Origin: Flavobacterium panacagri
Lineage (GTDB): Bacteria > Bacteroidota > Bacteroidia > Flavobacteriales > Flavobacteriaceae
Assembly (NCBI RefSeq): GCF_030378165.1
Contig: NZ_CP119766.1
Location: forward strand, 558,001-622,000
Length of the DNA: 64,000 nt
Reading direction: 5' to 3'
Under the pieces are notes generated by a model. The model saw only the letters and a program-made list of their open reading frames with translations, had not been told where the DNA came from and searched no databases. The position numbers and the translations under genes are program-made. Positions 10,897 through 17,898 of this stretch are shown here, in pieces. Numbering within the stretch: position 1 is the stretch's first letter; each line of letters opens with the position of its first letter.

Positions 10897-10929
10897 GATC
10901 CGAGCGTTAACAAACTGGCGAAGCAATTT
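10897..10929. repeat. Dispersed CCGAGCG...GGCGAAGCAATTT repeat, copy 1
   Basis: A GC-richer word pair (GATCCGAGCG, then CTGGCGAAGCAATTT) inside AT-rich DNA just past rsgA. Related copies are at 34540-34571 (inverted) and 59700-59732. An imperfect palindrome with the core CACTGCAGTG lies close by at about 10850-10870. Confidence 0.6.
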
Positions 10930-10950
10930 AAAAATTGGAATTTAAAATTT

Positions 10951-11928
10951 TTACTTTCTTGTTTCATCACTAGCTGCACGATCTTCACCATAAGTATCTG
11001 TGCGGTAATGCTCTTCATCTCCTTCCAAAATTTTCAGATAACTATTGTAACGAGACCAAGCAATTTCATCTTTTTCTAAAGCCGCTTTTATGGCGCAGTG
11101 TGGTTCTTCTTTATGCAAACAATTGTTAAACTTACATTGATCTTTCAATCTGAAAAACTCTGGAAAATAACCACTGATTTCTGATGGTTCCATATCTACG
11201 ATTCCGAAACCTTTGATTCCAGGTGTATCGATAATTCTAGCATCAAAAGACAAATCATACATTTCTGCAAAAGTTGTGGTGTGTTGTCCTTGTTTGCTTT
11301 GTTCTGAAATGACAGAAGTTTTTAAATGAAGACTTGGCTCCATAGCATTTACCAAAGTTGATTTTCCAACTCCCGAATGTCCAGAAAACATGCTTACTTT
11401 GCCAATCATCATTTCTTTCAGTTGGTCAACACCTTTATTTTCTGTTGATGAAATTCGGAGACATTTATATCCAATTTCCTGATAAATATGCTGGAGATAC
11501 AATTGATCGTCTAAAGTCTGATCGTTTAGTGTATCAATTTTATTAAAAATAAGAATAGCTTCAATCCCGTACGCTTCTGCAGTAACCAAAAAACGATCAA
11601 TGAAGCTTGTCGTCGTTGGCGGATTGTCAATCGTAACCAATAAAAAGACCTGATCAATATTAGAAGCAATAATATGAATCTGTTTAGACAAGTTAACCGA
11701 TTTACGAACGATATAATTTTTTCTTTCGTGAATCTTATGAATCGTACCCGTAATGGCATCTGAAGTTTCCTCTAATTCATAATCCACAATATCGCCTACA
11801 GCAATAGGATTGGTACTTTTAATTCCTTTTATTCTAAATTTCCCTTTCATACGGCATTCCACAAAATCTCCATTTTCAGATTTTACGGTATACCAGCTTC
11901 CTGTAGATTTATATACGGTTCCTGTCAT
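10951..11928 (-). CDS. rsgA: Ribosome small-subunit maturation GTPase
   Basis: Circularly permuted GTPase that helps late 30S subunit assembly. 325 residues: N-terminal OB fold (to about 85), GTPase domain with G4 FNKID, G1 GHSGVGKST and G3 DTPGIKGFG in permuted order, then a zinc-binding C-terminal region with Cys/His ligands in DQCKFNNCLHKEEPHC. The start MTGTVYKSTGSWYTV is typical. A TATCTTTG promoter lies upstream. An ATCTAAA-type tandem repeat fills the leader, as it does in front of the aspartate kinase gene. Confidence 0.96.
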   Translation of the reverse strand: MTGTVYKSTGSWYTVKSENGDFVECRMKGKFRIKGIKSTNPIAVGDIVDYELEETSDAITGTIHKIHERKNYIVRKSVNLSKQIHIIASNIDQVFLLVTIDNPPTTTSFIDRFLVTAEAYGIEAILIFNKIDTLNDQTLDDQLYLQHIYQEIGYKCLRISSTENKGVDQLKEMMIGKVSMFSGHSGVGKSTLVNAMEPSLHLKTSVISEQSKQGQHTTTFAEMYDLSFDARIIDTPGIKGFGIVDMEPSEISGYFPEFFRLKDQCKFNNCLHKEEPHCAIKAALEKDEIAWSRYNSYLKILEGDEEHYRTDTYGEDRAASDETRK

Positions 11929-11982
11929 TCTTTTACTTTAGATTTCTGATTTTAGATTTTAGATTCAAAACCTAAATCTTCG

Positions 11983-12016
11983 CAAAGATAAATGAATAAT
12001 TTTAAACATCGTTCAA
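11983..12016 (-). promoter_or_regulatory. Promoter of rsgA
   Basis: Minus strand: TTG (12016-12014), 23 nt, then TATCTTTG (11990-11983), a perfect TAnnTTTG -7 element. Confidence 0.55.
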
Positions 12017-12047
12017 GGTTTCAACCGCGAGCTATATTATACAAAAC

Positions 12048-12086
12048 AAAAATCCCCATCACTTCTTTCAAAGTAATAGGGATTTT
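12048..12086 (-). terminator. Terminator of the aromatic operon
   Basis: Arms AAATCCCCATCACTT and AAGTAATAGGGATTT pair with two mismatches or wobbles. On the minus strand T-rich DNA follows. It lies about 100 nt past the last gene of the pheA operon. Confidence 0.7.
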
Positions 12087-12187
12087 AAAAAACAATCTAT
12101 TTTTAATATTTTGCTATAAGAAAACTCAAGACCAAAGTTTAGTATAAACTTAAATTATCTTATATCACTTATAGGATTTAAAGAAAA

Positions 12188-13270
12188 TTATGCGTTGAAA
12201 ATTTTCTCTTGGTGACCAATACTTTCTTGGTGAATTGCTTTGAACATTCTTAAAACGAATTCTTCAGTAAGACCTTTTTTCTCTCCTTCTAAAATCATTT
12301 TTCCTAAGATTTCGTTCCAACGGTTATTTTGAAGAATCGCAACATTAGCGTCTTTTTTCACCTGACCAATTTCGTCAGCTACTTTCATACGTTTTCCTAA
12401 TAACTCTAATAAGTTAGCATCCAATACGTCGATGTTAGCTCTTAATTTTTTCATTTTTTGGCTGTACTCATCTGTAGTATCATCCGTTTTTCTGATAGTC
12501 AAATCTTTGATGATTTGTTTCAAAGCATCTGGAGTAACTTGCTGCGCTGCATCAGACCAAGCGTTGTCTGGATCGATGTGCGTTTCGATGATCATACCAT
12601 CATAGTTCAAGTCTAAAGCTTCTTGCGTTACTTCGAAAATCATTTTACGATCTCCAGTAATGTGAGATGGATCAATGATTAATGGTAAATCAGGGAATTT
12701 ATTTTGCAATTCGATAGCAATCTGCCATTCTGGAATGTTTCTGTATTTTGTTTTTTCGTAAGTAGAGAAACCTCTGTGGATAACTCCTAATTTCTCGATT
12801 CCAGCCATGTGTAAACGCTCAACACCACCTAACCATAAAGCTAAATCTGGGTTTACTGGGTTTTTAACCAAAACAATTTTATCAGTTCCTTTTAAAGTAT
12901 CTGCAATTTCCTGAACTGCGAAAGGATTTGCCGTTGTACGTGCTCCAACCCATAAAACATCGATATCGTATTCTAAAGCTAATTTACAGTGCGCTGCAGT
13001 TGCTACTTCAGTTCCCATTAATAAACCAGTTTCAGCTTTTGCTTTTTGTAACCATTTTAATCCGATTTCTCCAATACCCTCAAATCCTCCTGGACGAGTT
13101 CTTGGTTTCCAGATTCCAGCTCTGAAAACACTTACTTTTGAATCTTTCAATTCGTGAGCAATTTTCAAAACCTGATCTTCAGTTTCTGCACTACAAGGTC
13201 CAGCTATCACAAGTGGGTGATTTAAATTGAAATCTTCTAACCACTTTCTCATTTCTTTCTTATTTTCCAT
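12188..13270 (-). CDS. Bifunctional DAHP synthase / chorismate mutase (type II)
   Basis: Two-domain enzyme. Residues about 1-262 are a KDO8P/DAHP-synthase-type barrel that joins phosphoenolpyruvate and erythrose-4-phosphate (VIAGPCSAET, FRAGIWKPRTRPGGFEG, LIIDPSHITGDR). Residues about 268-355 are an AroQ-type chorismate mutase (KLRANIDVLDANLLELLGKRM, VKKDANVAILQNNRW). The fusion joins the first pathway step to the Phe/Tyr branch point and is typical of Bacteroidota. It is the last gene of the pheA-aminotransferase-tyrA operon, 13 nt after tyrA. Control by prephenate is expected from the family but not visible here. Confidence 0.93.
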   Translation of the reverse strand: MENKKEMRKWLEDFNLNHPLVIAGPCSAETEDQVLKIAHELKDSKVSVFRAGIWKPRTRPGGFEGIGEIGLKWLQKAKAETGLLMGTEVATAAHCKLALEYDIDVLWVGARTTANPFAVQEIADTLKGTDKIVLVKNPVNPDLALWLGGVERLHMAGIEKLGVIHRGFSTYEKTKYRNIPEWQIAIELQNKFPDLPLIIDPSHITGDRKMIFEVTQEALDLNYDGMIIETHIDPDNAWSDAAQQVTPDALKQIIKDLTIRKTDDTTDEYSQKMKKLRANIDVLDANLLELLGKRMKVADEIGQVKKDANVAILQNNRWNEILGKMILEGEKKGLTEEFVLRMFKAIHQESIGHQEKIFNA

Positions 13271-13283
13271 TTTATTTTAGTTT

Positions 13284-14141
13284 TTACTTTTTAATTGTTA
13301 ATCCGTTTAATATCTCTTTTATTTTATTTGTGCTTTCCATTTCTTCAAAAATGGCGTTGTAATCTTCTTCTTTCAGCAGATCCCTAAACCGACTGAGGTT
13401 TGCAATATAAGCTTCTAAAGTTTCTAGAACATGTTCTTTATTCTGCTTAAAAATGGGTGTCCACATCGCCGGTGAACTTTTTGCTAAACGAACAGTGCTT
13501 TCAAATCCACTACCCGCCATATCAAAAATATCTTGTTCGTCCTTTTCTTTATTCATTACTGTTTTCCCAAGCATAAACGAACTGATGTGCGATAAATGCG
13601 AAACGTAAGCAATGTGTTTGTCATGCGAAGTCGGATCCATATATCGAATTCTCATTCCTATTGAAGTGAAAAGATTCAAGGCTTTTTCCTGTAATTTAAA
13701 AGCCGTCTTTTCGACTTCACAGATAATGTTTGTTTTTCCTTGAAACAAACCTCTTATTGCTGCCGAAGGCCCAGAAAACTCTGTCCCAGCAATTGGATGC
13801 GTGGCGATAAAATTTCTTCTTTTCGGGTGGCTTGCTACCGCTTCACAAATTGGCTTTTTCGTCGATCCAACTTCAAAAACAATTGTTTTATCTCCTACTG
13901 CGTCCAAAACTTTAGGTAAAACCGTCAGCGCTACATCTACGGGAACCGAAACAATTACAAAATCGGCTTTTTGAAGATCCTCAAAACTTCCCGCTTCGTC
14001 AATAACACCTAAATCAATTGCCTGCTGCAAATGCTCTTCGTTACTGTCGATTCCTAAAATAGTCGCATCAGGATAACGTCCTTTGATGTCTAACACCATC
14101 GAACCGCCAATTAACCCTATTCCTATTACGTATACTTTCAT
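13284..14141 (-). CDS. tyrA: Prephenate dehydrogenase
   Basis: Oxidative decarboxylation of prephenate to 4-hydroxyphenylpyruvate, the tyrosine branch. 285 residues from the ATG at 14141 (MKVYVIGIGLIGGS), which opens directly into the NAD(P)-binding Rossmann motif GIGLIGGS. The frame continues upstream to 14171, but that part lies next to an intergenic repeat and adds only a non-conserved tail. Other motifs: FVIVSVPVD, THPIAGTEFSGP, and SHLSHISSFMLG with the catalytic His region. No ACT domain is seen. It is 13 nt ahead of the DAHP synthase/mutase gene. Confidence 0.93.
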   Translation of the reverse strand: MKVYVIGIGLIGGSMVLDIKGRYPDATILGIDSNEEHLQQAIDLGVIDEAGSFEDLQKADFVIVSVPVDVALTVLPKVLDAVGDKTIVFEVGSTKKPICEAVASHPKRRNFIATHPIAGTEFSGPSAAIRGLFQGKTNIICEVEKTAFKLQEKALNLFTSIGMRIRYMDPTSHDKHIAYVSHLSHISSFMLGKTVMNKEKDEQDIFDMAGSGFESTVRLAKSSPAMWTPIFKQNKEHVLETLEAYIANLSRFRDLLKEEDYNAIFEEMESTNKIKEILNGLTIKK

Positions 14142-14162
14142 ATTTCTTTTTATTTGAAGCTG

Positions 14163-14249
14163 TTCCTGCAAGGTTTCCTAAACCTTGTAGGTTTATATAA
14201 TTAAGACCTTCAATCCTATACCTACAAGGTTTTGAAAACCTTGCAGGAA
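14163..14249. repeat. Inverted repeat inside the aromatic operon
   Basis: Arms at about 14163-14194 and 14218-14249 contain TTCCTGCAAGGTTT and AAAACCTTGCAGGAAA and match at roughly 28 of 32 positions. Each arm also holds its own small palindrome (CAAGGTTTTGAAAACCTTG). It sits between the aminotransferase and tyrA and would fold in the operon mRNA. It carries no T-run, so it looks more like a processing or stability element than a terminator. Confidence 0.75.
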
Positions 14250-14258
14250 ATCTTGATA

Positions 14259-15404
14259 CTAAAATCTATCGATTGCTTCTTGTACTTTTTCTTCTTTTAC
14301 ACACAATGAGAATCTGATGTAACCTTCACCATTGCTTCCAAAAATGGTTCCCGGCGTGATGAAAATATGTTTCTCATATAATATTTCGTCAATGAACTTC
14401 TCTGCTGATTCGATTCCTTCTGGCAATTTTGCCCAAACAAAAAGCCCGACTCCTTCTTTATACACTTTACAGTTTAACTTTTCAGCTAATTTCTCTGTTA
14501 ATTCTCTACGGCGTCTGTAAATTTTGTTTTGATCTTCGAACCAAGACTTATCACATTTTAATGCTGCGATGGCACCTTTCTGGATTCCGTAATACATCCC
14601 GCTGTCCATGTTACTTTTTACTTTTAGAACTGCATCGATAATTTCAGCATTTCCTAAAACCATCCCGACTCTCCAGCCTGCCATGTTGAACGTTTTACTC
14701 AATGAATTTAATTCTAAAGCCACATCTTTTGCTCCTTCAACCTGCAATAAACTCATCGGATTATCATTCAAAACAAAACTATACGGATTGTCATTGATTA
14801 ATAATATATTGTGTTTTTTAGCAAAGGCAACCAATTTTTCAAATAACGCTAAACTTCCTCTAGCTCCTGTCGGCATGTGCGGATAACCAAGCCACATAAT
14901 TTTTACTTTCGAAAGATCCAATTTTTCTAAAGCTTCGAAATCTGGTTCCCATCCGTTTTCTTCTTTCAAATCATAATAAACCGGAACTGCTTGAACCAAA
15001 TTGGTTACCGAAGTATAAGTTGGATAACCTGGATTCGGAATTAAAACATGATCGCCTTCATTTAAAAATGCCAATGAAATGTGCATAATTCCTTCTTTCG
15101 ACCCCATCAAAGGCAAAATTTCATTATTCGGATTCACTTCAACACCAAACTGATCACGATAAAAATCTGCCATCGCCTGCCTCATTTCTGGCAATCCCTG
15201 ATAGCTTTGATAACCATGCCCGTTTTCATCTTGAATTGCCGCAGCGACTGCTTCAATTACTGCTTTTGACGGACTCAAATCAGGGCTTCCAATTCCCATA
15301 TTGATGATCGATTTTCCTTCAGACATCAACTGACGAACTTCTCTCAATTTTGAGGAGAAGTAGTATTCTTCAACTGTATCTAATCGTTTTGCTGTTGTAA
15401 TCAT
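14259..15404 (-). CDS. PLP-dependent aminotransferase of the aromatic operon (class I/II)
   Basis: 381-residue fold-type I aminotransferase. The PLP lysine lies in ELNSLSKTFNMAGWRVG. Other family motifs: MGIGSPDLSPS, LPLMGSKEGIMHISLAFL, PNPGYPTYTSV, GEGYIRFSLCV. Placement between pheA and tyrA suggests that it forms Phe and Tyr from phenylpyruvate and 4-hydroxyphenylpyruvate; by sequence alone it could equally be an aspartate or LL-diaminopimelate-type enzyme. The start at 15404 is the first Met of a conserved N terminus, 62 nt after pheA. Confidence 0.88.
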   Translation of the reverse strand: MITTAKRLDTVEEYYFSSKLREVRQLMSEGKSIINMGIGSPDLSPSKAVIEAVAAAIQDENGHGYQSYQGLPEMRQAMADFYRDQFGVEVNPNNEILPLMGSKEGIMHISLAFLNEGDHVLIPNPGYPTYTSVTNLVQAVPVYYDLKEENGWEPDFEALEKLDLSKVKIMWLGYPHMPTGARGSLALFEKLVAFAKKHNILLINDNPYSFVLNDNPMSLLQVEGAKDVALELNSLSKTFNMAGWRVGMVLGNAEIIDAVLKVKSNMDSGMYYGIQKGAIAALKCDKSWFEDQNKIYRRRRELTEKLAEKLNCKVYKEGVGLFVWAKLPEGIESAEKFIDEILYEKHIFITPGTIFGSNGEGYIRFSLCVKEEKVQEAIDRF

Positions 15405-15466
15405 GATTTCTATTTATTCTCTTTTAGAGTTTTTTTTTATTTCTTAAGCAAAGACTTTTAACTTTC

Positions 15467-16294
15467 TTATGGTCTGGTATTTTTATATTCTCCCAATACT
15501 TTAAAATACTCTGCCATGATATTTAATAATGCTTTGGCTTTTGCAAAATCTTCGTATTTCTCGAATGTCACGTCTACGAAGAATGAATATTTCCAAGGTG
15601 TTTCAATTTTTGGAAGCGACTGGATTTTTGTCAAATTCAATTTGCAATCACTCATTACATTCAAAACTGCTGCTAAACTTCCTCTTTTGTGATCTAATTC
15701 AAACTTAATAGACGCTCTATTAATTTCGCTTTCCGGCAAAAATGAATTTTGCTTTTTGATAATCACGAAACGTGTCATATTGTTTTTAATCGTTTGAATC
15801 GATGACGCGATAATATCAAGATCGTACATTTCAGAAGCTGTTACACTTGCAATTGCTGCAATCCCGGTTAATTGTTTTTCCTGAATTCTTCTTGCCGTTT
15901 CGGCTGTATCTTTATCCTCAATCAATTTGATATTTGGATATTGTTTCAAAAAATCCATACACTGCAAAAGTGCCATTGGGTGTGAATGAACTTCCTTTAT
16001 GTCTTCAATTTTCTGGCCTTTTAAAGCCATTAAATTCTGCTGAATGTTTAAATAATGCTCTCCAATTATGTGTAAATTATTCTTGTCAATCAAAGCATAA
16101 TTCGGAATAATAGGCCCTGCAATTGAATTTTCGATCGCCATTACGGCCTGATCAGATTTTCCGGCAATAAGGCTGTCGATCAATTCTTCAAAAGACAAAC
16201 ATTCATCAATATCCACATTTTCAGAGAAATACTCCTTTACAACCTGATGATGAAATGATCCTTTAATACCTTGTATTGCAATTTTCGTTGTCAT
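15467..16294 (-). CDS. pheA: Prephenate dehydratase
   Basis: Converts prephenate to phenylpyruvate, the phenylalanine branch. 275 residues: periplasmic-binding-like catalytic lobes (about 1-180) with MAIENSIAGPI and the hallmark Thr-Arg-Phe in NNMTRFVIIKK, then a C-terminal ACT domain (about 195-270) with the regulatory motif KRGSLAAVLNVM and a modified ESRP-like segment (KIQSLPKIETPWKYSFFVD). No chorismate mutase is fused; that activity is on the last gene of the operon. First enzyme gene of the operon. Its ATG is only 7 nt past the T-run of an attenuator hairpin and downstream of a Phe/Tyr leader peptide. Confidence 0.95.
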   Translation of the reverse strand: MTTKIAIQGIKGSFHHQVVKEYFSENVDIDECLSFEELIDSLIAGKSDQAVMAIENSIAGPIIPNYALIDKNNLHIIGEHYLNIQQNLMALKGQKIEDIKEVHSHPMALLQCMDFLKQYPNIKLIEDKDTAETARRIQEKQLTGIAAIASVTASEMYDLDIIASSIQTIKNNMTRFVIIKKQNSFLPESEINRASIKFELDHKRGSLAAVLNVMSDCKLNLTKIQSLPKIETPWKYSFFVDVTFEKYEDFAKAKALLNIMAEYFKVLGEYKNTRP

Positions 16295-16300
16295 ATAGTC

Positions 16301-16329
16301 AAAAAAAAATCCTGATTTGCATCAGGATT
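16301..16329 (-). terminator. Attenuator terminator in front of pheA
   Basis: Stem AATCCTGAT/ATCAGGATT (16308-16316 with 16321-16329), loop of four. On the minus strand a run of about nine T follows. It ends 7 nt before the pheA start and so can only act on transcripts entering the operon. Its 5' arm overlaps a segment complementary to the end of the leader-peptide frame. Confidence 0.88.
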
Positions 16330-16383
16330 GTATATTAGTTTTATTTGTCTTTTATATTTTTCAAATAACCATAGCACAATCCT
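16324..16383 (-). promoter_or_regulatory. Candidate antiterminator pairing of the pheA leader
   Basis: Minus-strand segment AGGATTGT (16383-16376, within leader codons 20-22) is perfectly complementary to ACAATCCT (16331-16324), which includes most of the terminator's 5' arm. The two structures are mutually exclusive. A 5-bp pause-type hairpin CTTCT/AGAAG (16396-16400 with 16386-16390) overlaps the Phe codons. This is the classic leader-peptide attenuation layout. Confidence 0.8.
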
Positions 16384-16441
16384 CACTTCTACTAAAGAAG
16401 AAATAAAAGTTGTTGCTAAAATAAAAACGGTTAGTTGCCAT
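16361..16441 (-). CDS. Phe/Tyr-rich leader peptide of the pheA operon
   Basis: A 26-codon frame starting ATG at 16441 and ending TGA at 16361-16363, too short for routine gene calling. Residues 6-8 read FYF and residues 12-16 read FYFFF, so 6 Phe and 2 Tyr fall within 11 codons; there is no Trp. This matches the end products of the operon exactly. It is followed by mutually exclusive antiterminator and terminator stems and then pheA. A promoter-like element lies 30-60 nt upstream. I infer that ribosome stalling at these codons when charged tRNA-Phe or tRNA-Tyr is scarce permits read-through. Start choice is the only ATG that keeps the aromatic run in frame with a stop before the hairpin. Confidence 0.87.
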   Translation of the reverse strand: MATNRFYFSNNFYFFFSRSEDCAMVI

Positions 16442-16470
16442 TTTGTTTGTGTTATTTTGTAAATTCTTTG

Positions 16471-16501
16471 CGAATGTATAAATTATTTTCAGCGCACCAA
16501 A
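16471..16501 (-). promoter_or_regulatory. Promoter of the pheA leader and operon
   Basis: Minus strand: TTTG (16501-16498), exactly 19 nt, then TACATTCG (16478-16471), one mismatch from TAnnTTTG. The leader ATG follows 29 nt later, so the 5' leader would be about 25 nt. Confidence 0.6.
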
Positions 16502-16609
16502 AAAAATAATGCATTTTATGAAACAAAAAAGGATTTCTTAACAAATTTAGGATGATTTGTATGATAATATAAAAATATGGGCTTAAAATGAGATATTTAT
16601 AATGAGGTT

Positions 16610-16641
16610 CTGAGGTTCTAAGCTGCTGAGATACTAAGTTT
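16610..16641. repeat. Four-unit 8-bp CTNAG array, copy 1
   Basis: Four consecutive octamers: CTGAGGTT, CTAAGCTG, CTGAGATA, CTAAGTTT. Each starts with the small palindrome CTNAG. The same architecture occurs at 19369, 41061 and 45249. Confidence 0.75.
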
Positions 16642-16646
16642 TTTTC

Positions 16647-16732
16647 GCCACGAATTCACGAATTAGCGCAAATATCTGTGAAATTAGATCTAATCACACA
16701 GATTTTCAAATAAAAATTCGTGAATTCGTGGC
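16647..16732. repeat. 18-bp inverted repeat past the DUF1501 gene
   Basis: Perfect arms GCCACGAATTCACGAATT (16647-16664) and its complement (16715-16732), with a nested imperfect palindrome centred on TAGATCTA. The right arm ends 2 nt before the stop codon of the DUF1501 gene. A related copy is at 34483-34577. It could serve as a transcript-end hairpin. Confidence 0.8.
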
Positions 16733-16734
16733 TA

Positions 16735-17898
16735 TTAAAATAATCCTGAAACCGGTTTATTCATAATCCCGATCTTAGCATAATCAAAATTCATTTTTTC
16801 TTTTAATAAAGATGCATACACACTTCTGAAATCTATTTCATATTTTAAATCGCCATTATCTAAGTCGGCCAGATTTGGATTTTTGCCTAAAATTGTGCCT
16901 TTGTTATTTCCACCAATTATAAACATTGGCGCTGCAGTTCCGTGATCTGTTCCATTTCCGTTATCTTTTACTCGTCTTCCGAATTCGGAGAAAACCACAA
17001 CTGTAACATTTTGCAATAATTGAGCTTCTTTTAAATCAGAATAGAAACTAAATAAAGCATCATTTAAATCGGTTAGTTTTCTTTCGTGAATGTAAAGCTG
17101 ATTATCGTGTGTATCAAATCCGTTAAGAGACGTATAATATACTTTTGAGTTTAGGTTTCCTTTTATTAAACGTGCAATCCATTCCAGGTTTTTCGATAAC
17201 TCTGTTTTGGGATAACTGATTTCTGTTTTGGATTTTGCTAATGCTTTTTGGATTTCATCTGAACCTTCTGTAACGGAATTAGCAATTTTTCGAACAAAAT
17301 CTAAATGCGGATTTTTAGATAAAGTCACATTTTCTTCTTTTGATTTTACTTTAAATCGATCCGGATCTTTTACGGTTATAAAATTTGGTTCAACTCCTTT
17401 TAAAGCCAAATTATCAATCGAATCTAAATTTATTCCCGCTGTTGCCTGATGTCCGTTGCATTGCAGATCTAAAAATCTTCCAAGCCAGCCTTCGTTTATA
17501 TATTTATTAGAATCGGTTGCCGTCTGCCAAATTTCCTGACTTCTAAAATGCGAACGAATTGGTTCTGGATAACCGACATTTTGAATTACGGTTAAATCGC
17601 CATTTTGCTGCATTTGAGCAAAATCTTTCAACGAAGGATGAAATGCCATTCCTTTATTCTTTCCAACAACTAAATCTTTATTTAAAGCAATCTTCGTTCG
17701 TAAATCATAATATAACGGATCATCGTACGGAATGAAAGTATTTAAACCATCATTTCCGCCATTCAACTGAACAAAAACGACACATTGTTCTCCCACAACC
17801 AAATTGTTTTGAGAACCAAAAGCGTGTAAAAATTCAGGAAGCACAAGCAGTCCGCCTGTGAAAGTTCCTGTCAATGTTAGAAAGTTTCTTCTGTTCAT
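16735..17898 (-). CDS. DUF1501 family exported protein
   Basis: 387 residues with a twin-arginine-like N terminus (MNRRNFLTLTGTFTGGLLVL), so probably Tat-exported. Family features: VFVQLNGGNDGLNTFIPYDD, HPSLKDFAQM, YPEPIRSHFRSQEIWQTA, SLNGFDTHDNQ, VVVFSEFGRR and a GTDHGTAAPMFIIGG segment, resembling the metal-dependent phosphatase/sulfatase fold. It follows the DUF1800 gene by 12 nt, the usual pairing in Bacteroidota and planctomycetes. The function of the pair is unknown. Confidence 0.85.
   Translation of the reverse strand: MNRRNFLTLTGTFTGGLLVLPEFLHAFGSQNNLVVGEQCVVFVQLNGGNDGLNTFIPYDDPLYYDLRTKIALNKDLVVGKNKGMAFHPSLKDFAQMQQNGDLTVIQNVGYPEPIRSHFRSQEIWQTATDSNKYINEGWLGRFLDLQCNGHQATAGINLDSIDNLALKGVEPNFITVKDPDRFKVKSKEENVTLSKNPHLDFVRKIANSVTEGSDEIQKALAKSKTEISYPKTELSKNLEWIARLIKGNLNSKVYYTSLNGFDTHDNQLYIHERKLTDLNDALFSFYSDLKEAQLLQNVTVVVFSEFGRRVKDNGNGTDHGTAAPMFIIGGNNKGTILGKNPNLADLDNGDLKYEIDFRSVYASLLKEKMNFDYAKIGIMNKPVSGLF

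Follow-up and report, generated by a model that had tools for sequence, protein, structure and literature searches.

A putative Phe/Tyr leader-peptide attenuator upstream of pheA in Flavobacterium panacagri, with covarying alternative pairings in related Bacteroidia

Introduction

Gene regulation has one of its founding examples in ribosome-mediated attenuation. The Escherichia coli pheL-pheA system, with its Phe-rich leader peptide, its 1:2, 2:3 and 3:4 pairings and its terminator ahead of pheA, resembles in all of these respects the element described here, which lies upstream of the pheA operon of Flavobacterium panacagri (assembly GCF_030378165.1, contig NZ_CP119766.1, positions 558,001 to 622,000 of the forward strand; this whole stretch of 64,000 nucleotides is called the window below). 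The trpL, hisL, thrL and ilv leaders of Proteobacteria and Actinobacteria are of the same mechanistic type. Bacteroidota make little use of Shine-Dalgarno sequences, and attenuators from this phylum may be listed by Lopatovskaya and colleagues in a publication of 2010.

In a 2010 study, leader-peptide systems are said, to its authors' knowledge, not to have been shown outside Proteobacteria and Actinobacteria, and the Firmicutes are added (PMC2965389); leader-peptide-like small open reading frames (ORFs) are mentioned for B. thetaiotaomicron (PMC7366714). The transcripts of F. psychrophilum have been mapped, and that report describes clues to leader-peptide attenuation upstream of amino-acid operons and places pheA and hisG among structured 5' elements that are conserved in other genera and lack Rfam hits (PMC9723704). 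Among the matches listed by our literature search, with subscription literature largely outside its scope, no title or abstract dealt with a Bacteroidota pheA attenuator.

The element in the window very probably works as a ribosome-mediated transcription attenuator of the pheL/trpL/hisL type, controlling pheA together with genes for an aminotransferase, TyrA and a DAHP synthase/chorismate mutase. An earlier note, made from the letters of the window alone, had proposed this reading, which is now supported by the finding that, in the family as well as outside it, the leader, the alternative pairing and the terminator occur together and covary.

Results

The whole element spans 16501-16294 on the minus strand (all coordinates are window positions), and its parts are as follows.

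16498..16501, minus strand: TTTG, a -33-type promoter-like element, read directly
16471..16478, minus strand: TACATTCG, a -7-type promoter-like element, separated from TTTG by 19 nt
16361..16441, minus strand: leader ORF MATNRFYFSNNFYFFFSRSEDCAMVI of 26 codons, with ATG at 16441 and TGA ending at 16361, read directly
16394..16426, minus strand: control codons 6-16 (segment 1), FYFSNNFYFFF, with six Phe and two Tyr among 11 and no Trp
16373..16417, minus strand: predicted 1:2 (protector or pause) hairpin of the Phe/Tyr codons and segment 2, from folding
16376..16383, minus strand: segment 2, AGGATTGT, the antiterminator 5' strand, at ORF nt 59-66 in codons 20-22
16324..16331, minus strand: segment 3, ACAATCCT, the antiterminator 3' strand, overlapping the terminator 5' arm, read directly
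16308..16329, minus strand: intrinsic terminator stem-loop AATCCTGAT-GCAA-ATCAGGATT (segments 3:4), 9 bp, from folding and a terminator scan
16301..16309, minus strand: terminator T-run of nine T, the first two inside the stem, read directly

Direct reading bore out four parts that the earlier note had described: the promoter-like TTTG-N19-TACATTCG, which resembles the Bacteroidota promoter TTG-N-TAnnTTTG, with its -7-type consensus of TAnnTTTG; the 26-codon frame with its aromatic run; the 8-nt stretch in leader codons 20-22, where AGGATTGT (16383-16376) can pair along its full length with ACAATCCT (16331-16324), which overlaps the terminator 5' arm; and the 9-bp terminator with its T-run (16329-16301), which sits between the leader ORF and the first gene, pheA (ATG at 16294). 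The stem-loop has a predicted energy of -11.4 kcal/mol, with a z-score of -5.2 against shuffles. A terminator scan of 10900-16800 returned four sites, including this one and one at 12086-12049, and shuffles of the region give 3.2; a terminator by itself is therefore weak evidence. The 5-bp pause hairpin proposed in the earlier note was replaced by a longer one: when the whole leader ORF is folded, codons 9-15 pair with segment 2 and its flanks over approximately 17 bp (10+3+4), a hairpin that folding of a short piece missed. Because the pause hairpin is redrawn in this way to include segment 2, all four segments of the classic attenuator are predicted, among them a hairpin that overlaps the control codons.

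From these parts we infer how transcript start, leader translation, ribosome stalling, the tRNAs sensed and the change in termination would be linked. Transcription would start near 16465. In a leader free of ribosomes, the Phe/Tyr codons of segment 1 would pair with segment 2, and the 3:4 terminator would form. Where charged tRNA-Phe and tRNA-Tyr are plentiful, the leading ribosome would reach the stop codon and cover segment 2; the terminator would again form, and transcription would stop ahead of pheA. Under a shortage of Phe or Tyr, the ribosome would stall in FYF or FYFFF, opening 1:2 and leaving segment 2 just past its leading edge, where it would pair with segment 3 before RNA polymerase reaches segment 4; with 2:3 formed the terminator would come too late, and the operon would be transcribed.

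Conservation among the closest relatives was read from loci found with pheA alone (the best 80 of 256 related loci, nearly all titled Flavobacterium), whose last 160 nt comprise 63 distinct sequences. The FYFFF codons, TTTTATTTCTTCTTT, are identical in all 80; ACAATCCTGAT, the terminator and the promoter box TATACATTCG are each kept in 80 of 80, and segment 2 (AGGATTGT) in 79, with GGGATTGT in its place in L090. The first 19 residues of the leader peptide are also well conserved. The codon overlapping the start of segment 2 is GAG in 34 loci, CAG in 31, AAG in nine, a TAG stop in five and AGG in one; as this codon varies, even to a stop, while segment 2 stays, the peptide tail appears dispensable and the RNA segment is what is kept. 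Outside the genus, leader peptides have little in common except their aromatic runs.

Detection in more distant genomes followed a fixed rule: an ORF of at most 60 codons starting with ATG and carrying at least six F/Y in 12 residues, followed by an ungapped terminator stem at most 110 nt from the ORF and at most 250 nt from the gene. The rule is blind to bulged stems. Among the 48 window ORFs of at least 120 residues it fires for pheA alone, and none of 321 dinucleotide shuffles of the family upstream regions described next triggers it.

A family sample of 120 genomes, drawn evenly, gave a pheA match in 107 (106 genera), and all 107 upstream regions were read. The detector script found the element before pheA in 101, and a short ORF with codon runs matching the amino acids of the operon is present, together with the rest of the element, in 102 by rule once L112 is added. 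Counting L150 (leader start 652 nt and terminator end 523 nt ahead of pheA) and L166 (460 and 336 nt) brings this to 104; these three loci stand outside the pairing, folding, spacing, Trp-codon and tree statistics. Across the family, the aromatic codon run, the complementarity and the terminator co-vary in the comparison of upstream regions that the earlier note had called for. The element was not found within the 379 nt that exist upstream at L197. Of 101 family leaders, 93 have a TAnnTTHG box no more than 70 nt from their ATG, compared with 647 of 5050 mononucleotide shuffles. In a first set of 40 relatives, 24 had pheA and 19 of those pass the detector; L012 is cut by a contig end with the rest of the element visible, L018 passes by eye with five F/Y, and the remaining three (L020 and L022, of the same genus and with pheA 47% identical, and L024) have pheA without the element. 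At L109, L110, L113, L115, L135 and L200 the terminator ends 70-135 nt ahead of pheA, leaving a long gap to the gene.

The absence of Trp codons, to which the earlier note had drawn attention, holds for the clade of the window but not for the family, where 71 of the 101 detected leaders include a Trp codon, in many cases immediately ahead of the last aromatic run. As the operon encodes DAHP synthase, which catalyses the first step of the common aromatic pathway, sensing of Trp as well would be plausible.

Covariation of the mutually exclusive pairings, like the conservation and spacing of the parts, is directly observed. The best duplex between the post-aromatic stretch and the terminator 5' arm was determined in 132 detected loci, and the 123 with a TCYY core formed the covariation set. 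The simpler pairing tests are only moderately strong, as terminator cores fall into few similar types, and a column-wise permutation test was then used. Triples across segments 2-3-4 at column 5 are G-C-G in 64 loci and A-T-(A or G) in 55; at column 6 they are G-C-G in 103 and A-T-A in 12, and at column 2 C-G-C in 78 and T-A-T in 21, with only 7, 3 and 2 of the 123 2:3 cells unpaired at columns 2, 5 and 6, respectively. Of the 123 loci, 109 have a complete set of five core 2:3 pairs, against a mean of 70.7 when terminators are permuted among genomes (maximum 79 in 200 runs) and 24.4 when segment 2 is shuffled; cores made up wholly of Watson-Crick pairs number 76, against 25.8 (maximum 37) and 5.0. 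In one FastTree phylogeny, built from the 57 loci with full-length PheA and rooted at the midpoint, with supports not examined, double Watson-Crick switches are needed at least four, three and four times at core columns 2, 5 and 6. The antiterminator pairing, mutually exclusive with the terminator, is supported by this covariation.

The spacing of the parts fits a ribosome as the moving element. In 100 of 123 loci, 10-13 nt separate the last aromatic codon from the segment-2 core (modes 12 and 11), compared with 76.1 for permuted terminators and 16.4 for shuffled segment 2; in the window this distance is 10 nt. A ribosome covers up to 12 nt beyond a stop codon (PMC4833913). Taken with the observed spacing, this suggests that segment 2 should stay wholly or almost wholly free when the ribosome stops on the last aromatic codon or earlier, and should be covered once the ribosome moves on. 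The leader stop ends 9-36 nt past the last aromatic codon in the 101 family leaders (mode 30), and a terminating ribosome would therefore sit over segment 2.

Folding also predicts the first hairpin across the family. Over the 101 family leaders, the mean 1:2 pairing probability is 0.78, against 0.50 with shuffled segment 1, and the minimum free energy is -13.0 kcal/mol against -8.5 (mean z -2.06, with z below -1 in 74). The 2:3 pairing alone, before segment 4 is made, has a predicted energy of -13.2 kcal/mol. In a separate observation, TTC occupies the third-to-last position of the aromatic run in 84 of 132 detected leaders and the last two codons prefer TTT, perhaps because codon -3 pairs in the 1:2 hairpin.

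Beyond the family, in the order sample, 54 of 99 genomes had a PF00800 match and 30 loci were read, some genomes recurring from the first relative set; the element is present in five, two of them in the family of the window, and is missing from the one f12 locus read. Two loci of family f16 (L228 and L232) have an ORF with six F/Y in 12 and no terminator. L214 lacks the element. In the class sample (PF00800 in 33 of 119 genomes), 13 of the 26 loci read from outside the order pass the detector and five more (L278, L286, L288, L289 and L293) were accepted by eye, one of them in a GC-rich stretch and two, L286 and L289, with bulged terminator stems; the other eight detector failures were not accepted. 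In the phylum sample (PF00800 in 128 of 148 genomes), 0 of the 28 loci read from other classes have a terminator or more than four F/Y in 12.

Other operons of the same genome carry leaders that match their products (four leader loci, L297, L298, L300 and L307). A His-rich leader ORF, MISIQLHQHHLHYCSQAMC, with a terminator lies upstream of hisG; a Trp-rich one, MRTILNNTWWWSNLRQTS, with a terminator upstream of trpE; an Ile/Val-rich one, MQISIIITSVVVVNVIHTSASGML (or one Met longer), with a terminator upstream of one ilvD; and a Thr-rich ORF ending TTTTTTP upstream of one of three homoserine dehydrogenase genes, where no terminator was found. A simple pairing test is passed by the his leader (5 of 300 shuffles as good) and not by trp (109 of 300) or ilv (136 of 300); for these two we therefore claim only ORF and terminator, and for thr only the ORF. 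No such leader was found at the other two homoserine dehydrogenase genes, the second ilvD or the second chorismate-binding gene.

The operon and the site that follows it comprise the following features.

15467..16294, minus strand: pheA, prephenate dehydratase (PF00800)
14259..15404, minus strand: aminotransferase class I/II (PF00155)
13284..14171, minus strand: tyrA, prephenate dehydrogenase, listed as a TTG-started ORF (PF02153 and PF20463)
12188..13270, minus strand: DAHP synthase-chorismate mutase fusion, the last operon gene (PF00793 and PF01817)
12049..12086, minus strand: terminator-like site 3' of the last operon gene, by consensus match only

The earlier note had called this exactly the Phe and Tyr branch; pheA, the aminotransferase and tyrA are indeed present, but since DAHP synthase feeds all three aromatic amino acids the operon is broader than that branch. 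The next gene, rsgA, probably forms a separate unit. At the start of the tyrA ORF (14165-14191) lies a 12-bp inverted repeat, CCTGCAAGGTTT/AAACCTTGTAGG, and AACCTG..AGGT repeats that look similar by eye fill the region upstream of pheA in L201. A further inverted repeat, GCCACGAATTCACGAATT and its complement, occupies 16647-16732 in the intergenic region between a DUF1501 gene and the pheA promoter. This 18-mer has 133 copies in the genome (60 + 73, with at most one mismatch) against none for a reversed control, often in close inverted pairs as in a REP-like family, and no match in phage records.

Discussion

Several observations weigh against ribosome-mediated attenuation at this locus and have to be set beside the evidence above. 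Nine loci without a TCYY core were left out of the covariation set, and 14 of the 123 retained do not form all five core pairs. The best placement of segment 2 was picked for each genome, in the controls as in the data, and related genomes do not count as independent cases. When segment 2 is shuffled within each genome, p<=0.05 is reached in only 69 of 101 leaders, a moderate result, and the own terminator type ranks first, alone or tied, among 15 in 68 of 123 loci. The 1:2 hairpin of the window itself is modest (0.88 against 0.74 when shuffled, z -1.8). Over the full stretch, forced 2:3 (-14.8 kcal/mol) and forced 3:4 (-14.7 kcal/mol) are equal, leaving the thermodynamics undecided, and the unforced optimum from segment 2 on (-15.0 kcal/mol) keeps eight terminator pairs; as the two forced states are equal, the switch would have to hinge on the order of co-transcriptional folding, as in the classic model. 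Finally, the element is missing from two family loci over the 800 nt examined (L179 and L201), from 13 of 13 loci read in family f5 and from 11 of 11 in f16. The earlier note had named pheA without an aromatic leader as grounds for abandoning its proposal; such loci occur, but the terminator is missing from them too, and as the element is thus absent as a whole they do not contradict attenuation by a leader ribosome.

Among other explanations, the one that survives best keeps the same RNA switch and changes its signal: the ORF would be a translation-stress upstream ORF responding to general slowing of ribosomes, for instance by antibiotics, and not to the charging of tRNA-Phe and tRNA-Tyr. Any ribosome stalled over segment 1 would antiterminate, and upstream ORFs of this kind exist in E. 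coli (PMC12121999). That 102 of 107 family genomes have retained a run of Phe/Tyr codons ahead of pheA argues against a general signal, as do the His, Trp, Ile/Val or Thr codons that match the operons behind the other leaders of the same genome, and we consider this explanation very unlikely. It is less likely still that a protein or a metabolite (through a T-box, a riboswitch or a TRAP-like system) controls the terminator and that the ORF arises incidentally from a U-rich tract. All these classes share a terminator with an alternative pairing; however, aromatic codons identical in all 80 loci picked by pheA alone, and a near-fixed distance from segment 2 to the last aromatic codon, are what a ribosome would require, and none of 4227 Rfam families, T-box included, reaches its gathering score in the window. 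Over the leader only two Rfam matches have an E-value of up to 1, patAB (24.1 of 92 bits) and AbsR25 (17.5 of 47), both well short of their cut-offs. That the ORF encodes a functional small peptide, with terminator and pairing incidental, has next to no probability despite the well-conserved first 19 residues, because residue 20 is interchangeable and even a stop in 5 of 80 loci where the RNA segment is kept, and peptides beyond the genus are alike in little but their aromatic runs.

On balance, and with some reserve, we favour a view of the Bacteroidia in which leader-peptide attenuation is old and system-wide, and in which the pheA leader is older than the orders of the class and was lost or never gained in whole families. 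In most genera of the family it would act as a three-input sensor that reads Phe, Tyr and a Trp codon, in keeping with the shared DAHP synthase; it would run with little Shine-Dalgarno initiation and from short 5' untranslated regions, and would obey one rule, that the start of segment 2 coincides with the leading edge of a ribosome that has stopped on the last aromatic codon.

A probable attenuator that is conserved and covaries in about 100 genera within a single Bacteroidota family, and outside it, offers a ready model system for the phylum. On this basis, aromatic synthesis is predicted to respond to amino acids in many environmental bacteria, and tight coupling of transcription and translation with little Shine-Dalgarno use becomes testable. 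The element is diverse enough to build a new Rfam family and to search for leader peptides that lack annotation.

With regard to known systems, the Rfam Phe_leader family (RF01859) has no match at the locus, either at its gathering score or with an E-value of up to 1. In a search of the genome in which 150 of 3077 candidates were scored, its one match lies elsewhere, at L302, with 35.9 of 55 bits and thus below the cut-off; the surrounding DNA is AT-rich and is flanked by apparent tRNA genes, judged by eye, and the match was set aside. Unlike E. coli pheL-pheA, the leader described here carries both Phe and Tyr codons, joined by Trp in most family leaders, and precedes a four-gene operon; compared with the trpL, hisL, thrL and ilv leaders it belongs to a different phylum, and no Rfam leader family matches the window. 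The pheA element of F. psychrophilum is likewise structured and upstream of pheA, and is very likely the same element; the peptide, the pairing and the covariation are given here and not in the accessible text of that report (PMC9723704). The statement of the earlier note that no well-studied example was known in Flavobacterium is tempered accordingly, as a structured pheA element, and clues to leader-peptide attenuation ahead of amino-acid operons, had already been reported in F. psychrophilum. The mechanism is known and the element was partly reported before; what is new is its detailed anatomy, its covariation and its class-wide spread.
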